This document shows positions 35,410 through 52,563 of a stretch of 55,475 bases of DNA, piece after piece. The stretch's first letter is position 1, and each line of letters starts with the position of its first letter. Both the position numbers and the translations under genes were made by a program. The stretch is from Bacillota bacterium. Lineage in GTDB: Bacteria; Bacillota; Limnochordia; DTU080. The stretch covers positions 1-55,475 of the forward strand of contig DULU01000116.1 in the NCBI GenBank assembly GCA_012840225.1, given 5' to 3'. The notes beneath the pieces were generated by a model, which did not search any database, was not told the origin of the DNA, and saw nothing but the letters and a program-made list of their open reading frames with translations.

Positions 35410-36246
35410 TTGCCCTTTGATTCCGAACCGCAACAGCATATCGACATCAGCGAAGACGAACCCAGGGAGCCGGAAATAGGCGGCGATGAGCCGGAGCAAG
35501 CCCAACTGGCCCTCCTGCAGCAGCTGGGGCAAACCCAGGCCCCGCCCCAGCTGGAGTCGCGCCTGCATCTCATTTCGGTTATCGGGCAGATAGAGGGCCA
35601 TTTCCTGCTCCCGCCCAAGACCAAGACCACCAAGTATGAGCACGTTATTCCCCAGTTGGTGGCCATCGAGCAAAACCCGAATATCGACGGGGTGCTGATT
35701 GTGCTCAACACTGTGGGCGGCGACATCGAAGCCGGCCTGGCTATTGCCGAAATGGTCAGGACCTTGTCGAAGCCCACCGTCACCCTGGTCCTGGGCGGCG
35801 GTCACTCCATCGGAGCGCCGATTGCCGTAGCCGCCAGGTATTCTTTCATCGCTGAGACCGCCACCATCACCATACATCCCATCCGCCTCACAGGTCTGGT
35901 GATCGGCGTGCCGCAGACCTATGAATACCTGGAAAAAATGCAGGACCGGGTGATCCGCTTCCTGGTGGCCAACTCAAAGATCGGCGAAGCCAGGCTGCGG
36001 GAGCTGATGTTCCGCACCGGCGAGTTGGTGCGCGATGTGGGTACGGTTTTGGTAGGTGCCGAGGCGGTACAAGTCGGCTTGATCGACGAAGTTGGCGGTC
36101 TGAAGCAAGCCGTGCAGAAGCTGGAAAGCCTGGTGGCGGAAGCGAAAAAGGGGGCGGCCGGCCTCTATCGCCCGGCTGAGCCCAAGGTTTATAACACCGG
36201 TCTGCCGGCACCTGCGACACCCTTCCGGGAAGAGGTCCTGGAATGA
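35410..36246 (+). CDS. tepA: TepA, ClpP-family membrane-associated serine protease
   Basis: 278 residues. Translocation-enhancing protein, a ClpP/crotonase-like protease linked to processing of secretory signal peptides. Acidic N-terminal tail (about residues 1-40), then the ClpP fold: [20 protein letters not shown] and [19 protein letters not shown] with the catalytic Ser and a His in [17 protein letters not shown] 35410 with CGGAGGAGG. The ylzJ gene overlaps by four bases (ATGA). The conserved order rnj-tepA-ylzJ is kept. Confidence 0.93.
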
Positions 36247-36491
36247 TATTTCATACCATCATACCGCCTGAATACCTATACGAGCAGTTTTGCGCCGTAG
36301 CCCCGGCTTTGCAGACTATAGATATCGGCGGCCTCAAGATGCAGGTGGAGCAGGGCAGCGCCGGATGGGGCAGAATTGTGCGCCTGTTTTCCACCAATCC
36401 GAACGACTACCTGAACCCCCGTTTTGCGCCCGGTTCCTGGATAGATCTGCGCCTGCTCTCCGGCAAAGGCCAAGGTTTCCAAAATCATTAG
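36243..36491 (+). CDS. ylzJ: YlzJ-like protein
   Basis: 82 residues. Sequence start [12 protein letters not shown] and middle [21 protein letters not shown] match the small uncharacterised YlzJ family, usually found directly after tepA and before spoIIIE/ftsK. Here tepA overlaps it by four bases, and the usual ftsK is not present; the next gene is a candidate selenoprotein. No function is known. No membrane segment or signal is visible. Confidence 0.85.
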
Positions 36492-36584
36492 AGGTTGCTG
36501 AGCAAGCGGACACCCGATGGTGGCAAGTCCCGGTGTGCCGTGCATAAAATACTGCGTAGCCCAAAAACAAGGAGCGAATGGCCG

Positions 36585-36932
36585 GTGCACCACACGCAGA
36601 CTCATGCCGGGCAACCCATTGAGGTAGCCGTGTTTGGATCGGGAAATACGCGCATCTGCTATGGGTGAGAGCGTGGGCGATCTCTGGAAGAGATCACCGG
36701 TTCTCTGGCCAAAAGATTGACGCGCCAATTCGGACCACTTGTCACCTGTAAATTTATCGATGTGACCAGCAGTGATCTGGACAAATATCCGGCGGTAAAA
36801 AAGTTGATCGAGGAGAGAAGAGCTCACTATCCGATTATTGCCATCAACGGCAAGGTGCGCTATGTGGGCACCTTCAGCCATACCTTCATATTGCGGGACA
36901 TCGCCGTGTTGACCGGCACGAAAAGACGGTAG
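36585..36932 (+). CDS. Candidate selenoprotein: thioredoxin-fold protein with CxxU (TGA read through)
   Basis: 115 residues if the TGA at 36666-36668 is read as selenocysteine (U28). GTG 36585 has AAGGAG at 36569-36574. Upstream of the TGA the frame encodes PIEVAVFGSGNTRICYG, a beta strand followed by C25-Y-G-U28, the thioredoxin-type active-site arrangement. After it come a helix (SLEEITGSLAKRLTRQFG), a strand (LVTCKFIDVTSSD), a second helix (YPAVKKLIEERRAH) and a strand with a Tyr-Pro (YPIIAINGKVRYVG), the cis-Pro area of the fold. Both sides of the TGA use the same codon style as neighbours. A SECIS-like hairpin begins 11 bases after the TGA. The C-terminal piece resembles the YuzD-type small disulfide oxidoreductases. 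The alternative is a nonsense-mutated cysteine gene or a sequencing error. Confidence 0.68.
36669..36698 (+). promoter_or_regulatory. Candidate bacterial SECIS hairpin after in-frame TGA
   Basis: GATCTC (36679-36684), loop TGGAA (36685-36689), GAGATC (36690-36695): six perfect pairs; two more G-C pairs beyond one mismatch (36676-36677 with 36697-36698). The loop starts 16 bases after the TGA, and its second base is G, as expected for bacterial SECIS elements. It lies inside the coding region. A computed fold and comparison with relatives would be decisive. Confidence 0.55.
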
Positions 36933-36996
36933 TAACTGTGGGGTAGTGGAACAGAGGGTTGTAAGAAATAGCTTGGGGCAGTTCGTTTTCCAAACA

Positions 36997-37043
36997 GAGC
37001 AGGGGCTGCCGGTGGCAAGCCGCAGACCCTGCTCATCATTTTT
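36997..37043 (+). terminator. Intrinsic terminator after the candidate selenoprotein gene
   Basis: GAGCAGGG (36997-37004) pairs with CCCTGCTC (37027-37034), eight pairs, with an inner CTGC/GCAG extension; a T-run (37039-37043) follows in the plus direction. It borders the stop of the convergent SPOCS gene (37043). Confidence 0.65.
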
Positions 37044-38764
37044 CACAATTTCGGCAACACCGTTTTGGGGAAAGGCTTCCAGACCAGCACTTCTTCCTTT
37101 TCGGCTCCTTCTTCTTTTTTAACCTCCTCCACTTTCTGTGCAGTGGTTTCCTGTTGGGCGCTCTCGACCTCTACCACTGCCTCTTCAGGAGGAACACTGT
37201 CTTCATTGGGCGCTTCAGCCAAAGCCGGCATGCTACTTTTATCTTCCTCTGCAGGTGAGATGGGCTCTGCAGGTGATGGTGGAGAGTCTTCTTCAGTTTG
37301 CTCTTCCACCTCTTGCACTTCCACCTCTGCTACATCGGGAATTGGAGTTGCCGGCTCCATTACCGGAGGTGGGGGTGCGGGCTCCAAGGTTTCCTCACCG
37401 GCTGTCACCGGAGCAGCAGCTGCGCTGTCGGCTTTTTCCGGTGCGGTCGCTTCATCTTCAGCTGTCGCCATCTCATCTTTTTCTTCTGTCAAAACCTGTG
37501 GTTCCCCGCTATGTTCATCAACCGACAGTTCTGCTTCAGCTGGTGCCGGTTCTGCGACGGCATCGCCGGCTTGGTCTTGATCTATATCGGCGGAATCTTG
37601 TTCACCTGCCTGAACTATAAGCGATTCCTCTTCCGGCGAAATATCTTTGACCTGTTCATCTACCCCAAGTTCTTCAGTTGCCGTCTCCTGAACCTCTGTT
37701 TCCATAGCCGGTATTTCCATAGCCGGTGTTTCAGCCGGTGGTGTTGCCGCCTCCATTTTTTCCACCTCCGATGCTGCCGGTATTTTTACCGGCACTGCCA
37801 AGGGCGCCGATACCTCGGTGTTCACAGCCAAAGGCTGTATAGGTGTTGTCTCATGAGCTGTCGCTTCGACCGCTACCGGCAGCTCGCTCTCGGCTTCAGC
37901 TTCACCAGGCGGCACCACCGTCCATCCGGCTGCCGGTTCGGCAGTTGGCTCGGCAGCAGTCTCCGCCTCTGTCTCTATGACCGTCTCTGCAGCCTGCTCT
38001 AAAATTCTCTCCGCCGCCTCTACCCTCTGTCCGGTGCCGGACGGGTGTTCAGCCTCTTCCGCTTTGGTTGGCTTCGTAGGTCCGGCCGCTGCTTCTTCGC
38101 TGTCCAGTCGAGCCGCCTGTTTTTTGATTTCCGCCCAATTGGGCTCCGGACCGTCATAACGTTGCCTTTGGATTTCATAAGTGCCGGAGCGCTCCCCCAG
38201 ATGAGGTTTCATGGAGGTGCCTGCCGCTCTCCGCCCTTTCTTTTCATCCAGGGCATCGGCTTTCACCACTTCATCGGCCGTCTCGTTTTCCTCTATCTCC
38301 CCACCGCTCCCGTTAATGCTGCTCCCGTCAATGCCGCTCCCGTTCCCACCGCTCCCGACTTTCGGCTCCGCCTTCTTTTCCGTGGCTTTGGCCTCGATCA
38401 TTACTCCGATCTTGATTTCATGATTCAGGTACTCATCGTCCCTGGAAAACTCGTGGCTGTCCTTTATATCCACCACACGGGCCACAAAGGGTCCTGTCAC
38501 TCCGGCCGGGGCGGCGATCTCCGTATGAAATGGGACTTCCAGACCTTGCCCCCGCACTTTTACCGAACCAAAACTCATGTAGTATAAATAAACTTTCAGA
38601 CTACCTTTGACGATTATTTTGTCATGGCGCAGGCTGGCCTCGCATTGACCGGCCTCAGTGCGAATTTCCACCACATGAGTGGCCCCACGCAGCGGTCCGC
38701 CGCCCTGCAGGACTATCTCGATTTGCCTGGACCAGATGGGCTCTGCTGTCTGCTCCATGGCCAT
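37043..38764 (-). CDS. SPOCS-domain (DUF3794/SipL-like) protein with long acidic tail
   Basis: 573 residues. The N-terminal 140 residues have a beta-rich pattern, ending in GVTGPFVARVVDIKDSHEFSRDDEYL, like the SPOCS domain that links spore coat and cortex proteins. A Gly/Ser/Asn spacer follows (SGGNGSGIDGSSINGSGG), then about 400 residues rich in Glu, Ala, Pro, Thr and Val, without clear domains. The final segment VLVWKPFPKTVLPKL is hydrophobic and basic. No signal peptide. The tail looks disordered and strongly acidic. It lies convergent to ylzJ's neighbour and divergent to the CAP gene. I infer a spore-surface or morphogenesis protein; family assignment is moderate. Confidence 0.6.
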   Translation of the reverse strand: MAMEQTAEPIWSRQIEIVLQGGGPLRGATHVVEIRTEAGQCEASLRHDKIIVKGSLKVYLYYMSFGSVKVRGQGLEVPFHTEIAAPAGVTGPFVARVVDIKDSHEFSRDDEYLNHEIKIGVMIEAKATEKKAEPKVGSGGNGSGIDGSSINGSGGEIEENETADEVVKADALDEKKGRRAAGTSMKPHLGERSGTYEIQRQRYDGPEPNWAEIKKQAARLDSEEAAAGPTKPTKAEEAEHPSGTGQRVEAAERILEQAAETVIETEAETAAEPTAEPAAGWTVVPPGEAEAESELPVAVEATAHETTPIQPLAVNTEVSAPLAVPVKIPAASEVEKMEAATPPAETPAMEIPAMETEVQETATEELGVDEQVKDISPEEESLIVQAGEQDSADIDQDQAGDAVAEPAPAEAELSVDEHSGEPQVLTEEKDEMATAEDEATAPEKADSAAAAPVTAGEETLEPAPPPPVMEPATPIPDVAEVEVQEVEEQTEEDSPPSPAEPISPAEEDKSSMPALAEAPNEDSVPPEEAVVEVESAQQETTAQKVEEVKKEEGAEKEEVLVWKPFPKTVLPKL

Positions 38765-38983: not shown

Positions 38984-39598
38984 ATGACTGGAAAAAGGTC
39001 GATACTGTTCTTTGCTTTAATTCTGGCCCTGGCCGGCATGGTCGCCGCCGAGGCCGGCAGCTGGAGTTACTTCCCGGGCGACGGCACATACTGGGGTTGG
39101 CCAAAGCTCCCCACCCAGCCGAATCCGCCGGCCGCGAATCCTGAGCCGGGGAACAAAACCGGAGATAAAGGTGACGATCCGGCACCGACCCCCATCAGCG
39201 GCTTAACCGAGGAGGAGGAGCTTTCCTTCCGCCTGGTCAATGCCGAACGCCAAGCCAGAGGACTAGTCCCGCTTGAGATTAACATGGAACTGGTCCGCTT
39301 GGCCAGGTTGCGGGTGAATGCCATGGTTGGCCTCTCCTGGGAAGTGATCAGAACTCACGTCATTCCTCCATATGGTTCGCCGCTGGACATGCTGGTATCT
39401 GCTGGTATTAATTACCGGTTCTGGGGAGAAAACATCGGCATCATGTCCACGGTGAAGAAAAACCATGAGGCTTTCATGGACAGTCCCGACCACAGAAGCA
39501 ACATTATATGCTCGGCATACAGGGAAATGGGAGTAGCCGTGCTCAATAAGAACGGTAAAACCTATGTCTCCCAGATTTTCCTGAGACGACGGGACTAA
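38984..39598 (+). CDS. Secreted CAP/SCP-domain protein (YkwD-like)
   Basis: 204 residues. N-terminal signal peptide (about 1-22; ILFFALILALAGMVAAEA), a Pro-rich linker (about 35-65) and a CAP domain (about 73-204). The CAP family elements are visible: LVNAERQARGLVPLEIN, RTHVIPPYG, the WGENIGIM segment, SPDHRSNIICSAYREMGVAV. Proteins of this group (YkwD, CwlB-like) are common in spore formers and often appear as sporulation-associated. Function is unknown. The gene is followed by a strong bidirectional terminator. Confidence 0.85.
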   Translation: MTGKRSILFFALILALAGMVAAEAGSWSYFPGDGTYWGWPKLPTQPNPPAANPEPGNKTGDKGDDPAPTPISGLTEEEELSFRLVNAERQARGLVPLEINMELVRLARLRVNAMVGLSWEVIRTHVIPPYGSPLDMLVSAGINYRFWGENIGIMSTVKKNHEAFMDSPDHRSNIICSAYREMGVAVLNKNGKTYVSQIFLRRRD

Positions 39599-49710: not shown

Positions 49711-50667
49711 CTAATGCACCTTCTGCCCCTCTTTTTCGCCGGCGGCAAAGAGGGGCATTATTTTATCCAGGCTCTGAGGTGCCTGATACATTTGCTCAAA
49801 AAGCGGCGGGCGGGCGAGTATCACTTTTATATCGGCTAAAGTGAAATCATGGGGTTGCACTCCTCTGCCGCTGCCGGTGACGATCAGTTCCTCCCATTCC
49901 ACCGGCACCGAAACGGGAGCATGGGGCAAGGGGCGCGGCACATAAGGCGCCACTATGGTTTTTCCGGGCAGATTCTGCAAATGGTCGATATACACTTTGC
50001 CGTCTCTTTTGGCCACCAGGCGTTCATTGGTGGCTTTCTGCGGATACGCTTTGACGATCAGCTCGCCTAAGTACCCCACAAAGCGGCTGGTCAGGCGATA
50101 AGGATAGCGCGGCCAAAGTGGGATATATATATGAATCCCGCTCGCTCCCGACAATTTCGGGTATCCCTTCAGGCCCAACTCCTGCAACAGCACGCGCACC
50201 AGCCCGGCAATTTCCACGACATCGCCGAATTCCGCCCCTGTGGCCGGATCCAAATCAACCACCGCATAGCTCGGATAATCCGGATGATCAGTGGTCGACA
50301 TCCAGGGGTGCAATTCGATGGCCGCCTGATTGGCCAGCCAGACCAAAGTGGCTTCATCCTCGGCCAGAAGATACCTGATCTCCCGGCTGTCATCGGAAAC
50401 AACCCTGTAGGTTTTAAGCCAGTCCGGAGCATATGAAGGGGTGTCTTTTTGGTAGAACATACCTTCCTCGATGCCGTCGGGATATCGTGTCAGGGTGAGG
50501 GGACGCTTATATAGATGAGGAAGAAGGCGCGGAGCGATTTGCCAGTAGTAGGCGATTAAATCGGCTTTGGTGAGGCCCGCCTCCGGCCAAAGCACCTTAT
50601 TCAAGCGGCTCAGCTCAAGCCTCTTCCCGCCCACCAAAACTGTATGCCTGTCTGCTTTCATTTTCAT
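49711..50667 (-). CDS. ligD: NHEJ DNA polymerase/primase (LigD POL type)
   Basis: 318 residues from ATG at 50667, which overlaps the ligase stop by four bases; a longer in-frame start exists but runs through the ligase. The start reads RLELSRLNKVLWPEAGLTKADLIAYY; HLYKRPLTLTRYPDGIEEGMFYQKD, VVDLDPATGAEF with the catalytic Asp pair, and SGASGIHIYIPL are the eukaryotic-type primase (AEP) motifs of LigD. It fills gaps with ribo- or deoxyribonucleotides at broken ends. Separate gene, not fused to the ligase. Confidence 0.9.
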   Translation of the reverse strand: MKMKADRHTVLVGGKRLELSRLNKVLWPEAGLTKADLIAYYWQIAPRLLPHLYKRPLTLTRYPDGIEEGMFYQKDTPSYAPDWLKTYRVVSDDSREIRYLLAEDEATLVWLANQAAIELHPWMSTTDHPDYPSYAVVDLDPATGAEFGDVVEIAGLVRVLLQELGLKGYPKLSGASGIHIYIPLWPRYPYRLTSRFVGYLGELIVKAYPQKATNERLVAKRDGKVYIDHLQNLPGKTIVAPYVPRPLPHAPVSVPVEWEELIVTGSGRGVQPHDFTLADIKVILARPPLFEQMYQAPQSLDKIMPLFAAGEKEGQKVH

Positions 50668-51704
50668 GGCTGCAGCACTCCTTCTTGCCGGACCAGAGGA
50701 TGATCGGCTTCCAGGCGACACTCGTGGGGTTCTTTGTCTGTGCGCCAACCCTTGAATACCGGGTGACGGAGAAGGCCGCCGCCGGTCCAGGTTAAAAACT
50801 GTACACTGCAGACCAGATTTGGCTGCACCCAGACGGCATCTTTGGCGTGTTCCCGGGGCACATGAAGGAGGAGGGGACCGGCCCCCGACTTGAGCCGGAG
50901 CGACAGAAGGATCCTGAGCAGGGAACGGCGCTCGGCGGTGCTGAAGCCGGTGCCTACATGACCGATGTAGATCAACTCACCGCCGGCGGTATATTGCCCA
51001 AGAAGCAAACTTTGCAGCGTGCCGTCTGCCGACTCGGCTCTCCCTTGGCCGATAAAGCCGCCGACCACACAGTCGATCTCCCTGACATTTCTGACCTTTA
51101 TCCAGTGGGTGCTGCGTTTTCCGGGAATATAGGGACTATCCAACCTTTTGGCCACCAGACCTTCCCAACCATCCCTCGCCAGCATCTGCCAGAAGGTTTT
51201 GCCGCTTCCGATCAGGCCGGGAGTTTTGATCAGACAGGGATTTTCCTCAAAGAGACCATGCAGCATCTCCCTCCTTTCCCGAAGAGGACGGGCCAGCATG
51301 GGCGCACCATTAAGATACAATAGATCGAAGGCGGCGAAAGTGGCCGGGTATTGAGCAGCCAGCTTGGCAATGTGTCCCGGGATGCTTGTCATATTGCGGT
51401 TTCTCACCAGATCGAAATCAGGCAGGCCGCCTGCGCCGATGACAATCAATTCTCCGTCGATGATCCAATCCGTCCCTTTGATCAGACCTGTCAAACAGGA
51501 TAGTTCGGGAAATCTGGGGAGCAATTCTTTGCCGTTGCGGCTCAGCAAACGCAAGCCGCCGTCTCTGAACCAGGCCTGGCAGCGCAAGCCGTCCCATTTC
51601 GGCTCGTTGAGGAAATCCTCCGTATCCGGCAACTCGCCCGTCACCGCCAACATGGGCGGGATAAAATCCGGCATGGTACCTGAGGCATTACTTGGCCTTG
51701 CCAT
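50664..51704 (-). CDS. ATP-dependent DNA ligase (LigD LIG type)
   Basis: 346 residues. Adenylation motif EPKWDGLRCQAW with the AMP-accepting Lys; DWIIDGELIVIG, FAAFDLLYLNGAP, EGLVAKRLDSPYIPGKRSTHWIKV, and a C-terminal OB fold. Seals breaks during non-homologous end joining. It overlaps ku by 17 bases if ATG 51704 is used; ATG 51674 is a possible start. The nuclease domain of large LigD proteins is not encoded here, so this is the split form. Confidence 0.9.
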   Translation of the reverse strand: MARPSNASGTMPDFIPPMLAVTGELPDTEDFLNEPKWDGLRCQAWFRDGGLRLLSRNGKELLPRFPELSCLTGLIKGTDWIIDGELIVIGAGGLPDFDLVRNRNMTSIPGHIAKLAAQYPATFAAFDLLYLNGAPMLARPLRERREMLHGLFEENPCLIKTPGLIGSGKTFWQMLARDGWEGLVAKRLDSPYIPGKRSTHWIKVRNVREIDCVVGGFIGQGRAESADGTLQSLLLGQYTAGGELIYIGHVGTGFSTAERRSLLRILLSLRLKSGAGPLLLHVPREHAKDAVWVQPNLVCSVQFLTWTGGGLLRHPVFKGWRTDKEPHECRLEADHPLVRQEGVLQP

Positions 51705-52563
51705 TTGTGCTTATGGCTCCGGCAGCCACGGCAGTCCGCCGCTTTGGAGCCGACCGGGGCGCCGCTTTTTTCTTCTTTTGCTCTGCCGTCGCTTTAATGC
51801 TGGCTTCCAGGGCAGCCATGAGATCCACCACCTTACCGGCAGCCGGAGCAATAGCAGGAGCTTCGTGTATTTGCTTCCCTGATGCTTTGTTCCTGATCAA
51901 CTCCAGGAGAGCGGTGCGATACTGATCGGTATACTTCTCCGGCTCAAAGGCAGCGGTCAGGTTTTCTATCAGGCGCAGGGCCATCTCTTTCTCCGCGCCG
52001 GATAAAACCGGCTCCTCGGCAATACCCTCGAGTTGGGCCACCGGTCTGATCTCATCGGCATAATGCATGGTCGCCAAGGCTAAGGCTTTCCCGAAGACCC
52101 GCAAGGCGCACAGGCTTTCCCTGTGCCGTAAGGCTACCTTGGCCACCGCTGCTTTACCTGATTGCTGCATGGCCAGCCGCAGCAGCGCATAAGGCTTCTG
52201 GGCCCCTTCTGCCGGCTCCAGGTAATAACTTTTCTCGAAATAAATCGGATCTATTTCCTCCAGATTGATGAAATCCATTATCTCGATGGTTTTCGTGGTC
52301 GGCAAAGGTAATTCTGCCAGATCCGCCTCTTCTATTACCACAAAACGTCCGCTTTCATATTCATAGCCACGCACAATCTCTTCCTGAGGCACCTCTGTCT
52401 GACAGTGGGGACACTGTTTCAGGTAGCGTATGGGAGTAAAACACTGGCGGTGCAATTGGTGAAACGATACGCTTTTGTTTTGCGTAGCGGCATATAGCTT
52501 GACGGGTATATTGACCAAACCGAAGCTGACGGCGCCTTTCCAAATGCTGCGCAAAAGGCTCAC
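51688..52563 (-). CDS. ku: NHEJ protein Ku
   Basis: 291 residues. Homodimeric DNA-end-binding protein. Start SLLRSIWKGAVSFGLVNIPVKLYAAT is the canonical Ku beginning; the RYLKQCPHCQTEVPQEEIVRGYEY core follows, with a basic C-terminal tail rich in Lys/Ala (EQKKKKAAPRSAPKRR), which helps DNA binding. GTG at 52563. In spore formers this system is used to repair dormant-spore DNA, so mother-cell or forespore expression may be expected. An inverted repeat covers the start codon. Confidence 0.93.
   Translation of the reverse strand: MSLLRSIWKGAVSFGLVNIPVKLYAATQNKSVSFHQLHRQCFTPIRYLKQCPHCQTEVPQEEIVRGYEYESGRFVVIEEADLAELPLPTTKTIEIMDFINLEEIDPIYFEKSYYLEPAEGAQKPYALLRLAMQQSGKAAVAKVALRHRESLCALRVFGKALALATMHYADEIRPVAQLEGIAEEPVLSGAEKEMALRLIENLTAAFEPEKYTDQYRTALLELIRNKASGKQIHEAPAIAPAAGKVVDLMAALEASIKATAEQKKKKAAPRSAPKRRTAVAAGAISTNGKAK

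Follow-up and report, generated by a model that had tools for sequence, protein, structure and literature searches.

Structure of the locus

The window, i.e., the whole stretch of DNA analysed here, comprises 55,475 nucleotides of a Bacillota genome (class Limnochordia; GenBank assembly GCA_012840225.1, contig DULU01000116.1). The features considered below are the following.

35410-36246 (+): tepA-like gene for a Clp-family protease, conserved upstream neighbour (Pfam CLP_protease, E = 5.5e-24; synteny)
36243-36491 (+): ylzJ, syntenic upstream neighbour (Pfam YlzJ, E = 1.8e-19; synteny)
36569-36574 (+): AAGGAG, probable ribosome-binding site for GTG 36585, proposed from the sequence
36585-36932 (+): gene for a predicted YuzD/DUF1462-like selenoprotein with a thioredoxin fold, 115 amino acids, C25-Y-G-U28; probable GTG start, TAG stop
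36666-36668 (+): UGA codon probably read as selenocysteine (Sec), residue 28; aligned with TGA in genomes of the class and phylum and with Cys elsewhere
36679-36695 (+): bSECIS apical stem-loop, GATCTCT-GGA-AGAGATC (fold, covariation, control scan and published constraints)
38984-39598 (+): gene for a CAP-domain protein, conserved downstream neighbour (Pfam CAP, E = 1.1e-10; tblastn)

A single TGA codon interrupts the frame that runs from GTG 36585 to the TAG at 36930-36932. When this codon is translated as U, the product has 115 amino acids, VHHTQTHAGQPIEVAVFGSGNTRICYGUERGRSLEEITGSL...TGTKRR, and U is residue 28. Re-reading the frame thus reproduced the initial annotation, which had placed the TGA at the second position of a redox motif, C25-Y-G-[TGA], and had expected conventional gene finding to return only a 71-residue fragment behind it; a start at TTG 36717 gives exactly 71 residues. 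GTG 36585 is a plausible start, with AAGGAG about 10 nt upstream. ATG 36578 lies close behind AAGGAG and was rejected because it is out of frame. We also rejected a 256-amino-acid open reading frame on the minus strand (36276-37046), which spans ylzJ and the selenoprotein gene, as a shadow frame, since ylzJ occupies the opposite strand and conservation is seen in the sense protein; a gene finder might call this antisense frame instead of the selenoprotein gene. When the window gene was compared with its three nearest Sec relatives, third codon positions were less conserved than the first two on both sides of the TGA. In the codons that form the bSECIS element, all three positions were identical in the two closest Sec relatives.

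The gene had been described as lying at the place where ftsK/spoIIIE is often found, which is right in that the tepA/Clp-like gene and ylzJ sit just upstream. The order tepA-ylzJ-gene-CAP is common to L030 (a TGA form) and L029/L098 (TGC forms), and at the locus shared by G019 and G040, tepA and ylzJ lie upstream, with a SPOCS-like gene and the CAP gene downstream. The CAP gene also adjoins distant Sec members of family f13. In two Sec orthologues from metagenome-assembled genomes (MAGs), RSA5 and RSA8, the whole row is common, from what we take by eye to be aspartokinase, dapA and rnj to SleB and YpeB.

Homologues and exchange of Sec and Cys

Among the relatives of the window gene, the TGA form was found in G004, G005, G019 and G053, and a form without TGA in G040, G018, G051 and G038. 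A class-wide profile search of 73 genomes detected the gene in 33, and 29 of these 33 carried one in-frame TGA. In the extracted homologues (three hits, G024, G058 and G049, are left out of this reading), the TGA always aligns with C28, a column occupied by Sec or Cys throughout; apart from it, only the column of P83 does not vary. In a sample of 398 genomes of the phylum, 71 matched the profile, and in all 17 of the TGA genomes outside the class in which the position was read, the TGA lay at the same active-site motif; six further genomes listed with TGA fall outside that reading. The initial annotation had proposed looking for Cys or Sec at residue 28 in homologues, and both occur at exactly that position.

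Orthologues were also found in MAGs, with TGA in RSA5 (PKEX01000004.1) and RSA8 (PKEU01000137.1) and with Cys in ZC3RG07 (PIUA01000011.1). Seven loci were found in genome contigs with alignment A3: three orthologues (L096-L098) and four others (Shewanella and Planctomycetaceae), which were weak partial matches and were set aside. The window protein used singly found no related locus in the genome contigs, and no relative was found in the plasmid and phage collections.

Sec and Cys forms can be very close to each other. At one locus in sister species of a single genus, L030 has TGA and L029/L098 have TGC; G019 (TGA) and G040 (Cys) are members of one genus in which the gene keeps its position. 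The tree requires at least eight changes between Sec and Cys, six of which are forced by well-supported branches. The first Cys of the motif is less constant: L042 has another residue in place of Cys25, and in several members of the phylum this Cys is shifted (for example C-x4-U in L082, C-x-U in L079).

Some members have unusual arrangements. L079 (in G140) is a Sec form with the motif C-G-U-G-C and extra Cys, nested among Cys forms. A family member in G160 (C37:2883-3119) has two in-frame TAG codons, and is either a pseudogene or perhaps a case of pyrrolysine use. Two diverged Cys-form copies lie about 2 kb apart in G018 (C3:5220-7892).

The bSECIS hairpin

A hairpin 11 bases past the TGA had been noticed at the outset, and the folding calculation agrees with it: 10 bases separate the UGA from the start of the stem at 36679, and a 7-bp stem carries a GGA loop. 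The 41-nt segment that begins at the UGA has a folding energy of -19.7 kcal/mol, vs. -11.3 kcal/mol for shuffled sequences (z = -3.39; none of 200 shuffles was as good). Published constraints for bSECIS elements are a loop of 3-9 nt with a G in its first two positions, a stem of 4-16 bp and a distance of 16-37 nt from the UGA (PMC13188914); the window hairpin, with a 3-nt GGA loop, 7 bp and 17 nt between UGA and loop, lies within all of them.

A hairpin was counted as comparable at a score of at least 11.5 and a distance of 14-26 nt, with a G in the first two positions of the loop. Such a hairpin followed 41 of 43 Sec codons and none of five Cys codons, and it was found at 174 of 2710 (6.4%) control positions, which were taken further downstream, inside and just behind the same genes. 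The standard hairpin was not seen in L079 and L085. Covariation was analysed in 36 sequences with a common spacing, an alignment that leaves out the ill-fitting L079 and four members whose spacing is 20 nt. Pairing was preserved in 96.3% of cells (83.5% in shuffled alignments) and two-sided changes occurred in 34 cells (9.9 shuffled). The covariation score was 0.468, compared with 0.211 for shuffled alignments (reached in 0 of 500 shuffles) and at most 0.171 for slid versions, and four of six pairs showed compensatory changes. Constraint on the protein explains part of the conservation of the hairpin bases, but it explains neither the compensatory changes nor the absence of the hairpin from Cys forms.

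Selenocysteine machinery

The genome from which the window comes (G000, 96.6% complete) encodes SelA (E = 7.5e-138), SelB (300 bits, encoded on the contig of the window gene itself), a tRNA-Sec with a UCA anticodon, and SelD (375 bits). Absence of selA, selB, selC and selD had been named in the initial annotation as a ground for abandoning its claim; all four are present. Furthermore, the selD gene has its own in-frame TGA, at ...KAG-U-AGKMSP, the known Sec site of SelD. This codon agrees with UxxK, the motif that PMC13188914 gives for selenophosphate synthetase with selenocysteine, and decoding of UGA as Sec is therefore to be expected in this organism.

Across the class, SelA was detected in 26 of the 29 genomes with the TGA form and in none of the four with the Cys form (Fisher P = 0.0009, a value that is indicative only, because related genomes are not independent). 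SelB likewise exceeded the cut-off in none of the Cys-form genomes of the class. Three TGA-form genomes account for the remainder. The assembly of G004 is missing SelA, but contains SelB (364 bits) and tRNA-Sec (63.5 bits). Neither SelA nor SelB was detected in G055 and G068, which are fragmented assemblies of about 290 and 190 contigs, respectively; because relatives such as G057 have their sel genes in a cluster, loss of a single contig could explain both absences. In G019, contig C1 carries two selB and two tRNA-Sec genes (373376-375387 and 3690062-3693193; tRNA-Sec scores of 81.0 and 69.3 bits), and one selB directly adjoins one of the tRNA-Sec genes.

Fold and relationship to known families

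The thioredoxin fold proposed in the initial annotation was borne out by structure prediction and by comparison with solved structures using Foldseek and VIA. An AlphaFold2 model built from a four-sequence alignment (pLDDT 81) has its elements in the thioredoxin order beta-alpha-beta-alpha-beta-beta-alpha. The CxxU follows strand 1, Pro83 precedes strand 3, and the active-site loop is a less confident part. Among solved structures, the S. aureus protein 1xg8 was the best match (E = 4e-5 in Foldseek; Z = 11.1 in VIA, with 104 residues aligned), and thioredoxins and ArsD followed at Z values of 8-9. 1xg8 is listed as DUF1462, SCOP c.47.1.17 (PMC3091736). The family profile also matches 1xg8 (E = 4.3e-6), placing C-A-S-C over C-x-x-U, so that the solved protein has a CxxC where the window protein has Sec for the second Cys. 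Against Pfam DUF1462 (PF07315), the window protein scored 20.1 bits (E = 7.9e-4), below the gathering cut-off of 25 bits, whereas the Sec member L088 passed with 28.8 bits. Therefore, the resemblance to YuzD noted earlier holds for fold and profile but not for Pfam membership: the window protein is a relative of DUF1462/YuzD, not a formal member of that Pfam family. A phmmer search of the PDB with the single window protein gave nothing useful, and weak Pfam/NCBIfam matches to Sep15/SelM, ThsA macro and SoxB were discounted, their scores being far under the cut-offs.

The alternative that deserves most attention is that the gene is a divergent copy of a catalogued selenoprotein family (the CC/Se motif family NF041239, HUIPC Trx NF047660, SelW-like Rdx, or Thioredoxin_3 Sec.1/Sec.2), or has already been reported elsewhere. 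All of these families are small and most are thioredoxin-like. In SelW/Rdx, as in the window protein, the CxxU of the thioredoxin fold directly follows strand 1, and SelW structures gave Z = 8.1; this match is no better than that to ordinary thioredoxins, and Pfam Rdx (PF10262) gave no match up to E = 1, either with the window protein or among the families listed for A1. The metallochaperone ArsD (PF06953) has a similar thioredoxin fold (Z = 8.7). Its Pfam/NCBIfam models matched several members weakly and always below the cut-off (at best 21.5 vs. 27 bits), and did not match the window protein to E = 1. NF041239, known from Moorella, is a small CxxU selenoprotein of the same phylum, but it is a separate gene at separate loci: its matches in G119, G185 and G122 lie elsewhere than the family gene, and G000 has none. 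L071 gave a weak match to NF047660, confined to the C-terminus (18.9 bits against a cut-off of 105).

In NCBIfam release 20.0 (June 2026), through which the families of Haft and Tolstoy (2025) were covered, no model reached its cut-off for any scanned member, and the best match by both structure and profile remained the DUF1462 protein 1xg8. The catalogues of 2022 (PMC9312934) and 2026 (PMC13188914, Table 1) have no DUF1462/YuzD entry, and no pairing of selenoprotein with DUF1462/YuzD was found in the open literature searched. We therefore consider this alternative unlikely. The family appears to be uncatalogued, and may have been noticed earlier, for example in a subscription paper or preprint, or among the candidates from groundwater MAGs in Deng et al. 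(2026).

Interpretation of the UGA codon

Two further alternatives concern the codon itself. If the TGA were a true stop, the gene would be a pseudogene or wrongly assembled, or a short protein would be made from the downstream part. Translation table 11 does end the frame at the TGA and leaves only the 71 residues from TTG 36717. However, the codon is found together with the protein flanks and the hairpin in dozens of independent genomes, which argues against chance and against the sequencing error that had been named as a possible refutation, and Cys takes the position where the Sec machinery is missing. These observations refute the stop reading in substance, and we give it very little weight. 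Least probable of all is decoding as Trp, Gly or Cys by reassignment or suppression, since, although only the codon and not the residue is visible, the TGA occurs once per gene, always opposite an otherwise invariant Cys, is followed by a covarying SECIS, and stands in a genome with SelA, SelB, tRNA-Sec and a SelD that uses the same code.

The frame, the Sec/Cys exchange, the machinery, the bSECIS and the predicted fold were obtained by computation, and the best explanation of them as a whole is that the gene encodes a selenoprotein, with UGA 36666-36668 probably decoded as Sec (probability about 0.92). Insertion of Sec is inferred from sequence evidence of a kind that the field accepts. The selenoprotein claim of the initial annotation is thus supported and enlarged, from one candidate to a genuine and widespread family.

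Proposed mechanism and implications

On the proposed mechanism, SelB and tRNA-Sec would decode the UGA as Sec, directed by the bSECIS hairpin, and the product would be a small thioredoxin-fold protein related to DUF1462/YuzD; it has no obvious export signal. In other CxxU selenoproteins, an attacking Sec is thought to be paired with a resolving thiol. Position 28 is invariant, and Cys25 is absent or moved in some members, which suggests that Sec28 is the attacking selenol; Cys25 would be the usual resolving thiol, or another thiol would resolve. Pro83, which precedes strand 3, would stand at the place of the cis-proline of thioredoxin. We infer that the window protein is most likely a selenol/thiol oxidoreductase, which would act on a disulfide or on an electrophile of the arsenical or metal type, and that the oxidised protein would be recycled by a cellular thiol system.

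For the family as a whole, we favour, with less assurance than for the codon, a phylum-wide and uncatalogued group in which the single Sec/Cys at position 28, rather than a CxxC pair, is the essential element, and in which gain or loss of the Sec machinery in the lineages went along with several swaps between Sec and Cys. Such proteins might handle a dedicated reductant, a metalloid or a selenium-related substrate. Within one class, 29 of 73 genomes have the Sec form, which is also present in at least nine other families of the phylum and extends the bacterial selenoproteome. Gene finders cut the family at its active site, and the catalogues examined miss it. It also offers a chemical lead for the uncharacterised YuzD/DUF1462 proteins: because Sec has been selected at that position, the second Cys of their CxxC is probably the catalytic residue. 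The close Sec/Cys pairs at one syntenic locus are suited to asking why Sec is kept or lost.

The neighbours in the class (RNase J, TepA-like, YlzJ and CAP) are not metabolic; like the SPOCS-like proteins, they give no clear functional pointer, and no arsenic operon was recognised beside the window gene. Distant members provide single cases, named by eye: presumably a YeeE/YedE gene near L082, a lipoamide dehydrogenase near L078, and, as a single hint, a thioredoxin-reductase-like gene near L089. Elsewhere in the window (49711-52563, minus strand), next to a tRNA-Val, lie genes that we take by eye to encode a LigD polymerase-like protein, an ATP-dependent ligase and Ku, presumably a bacterial NHEJ set.
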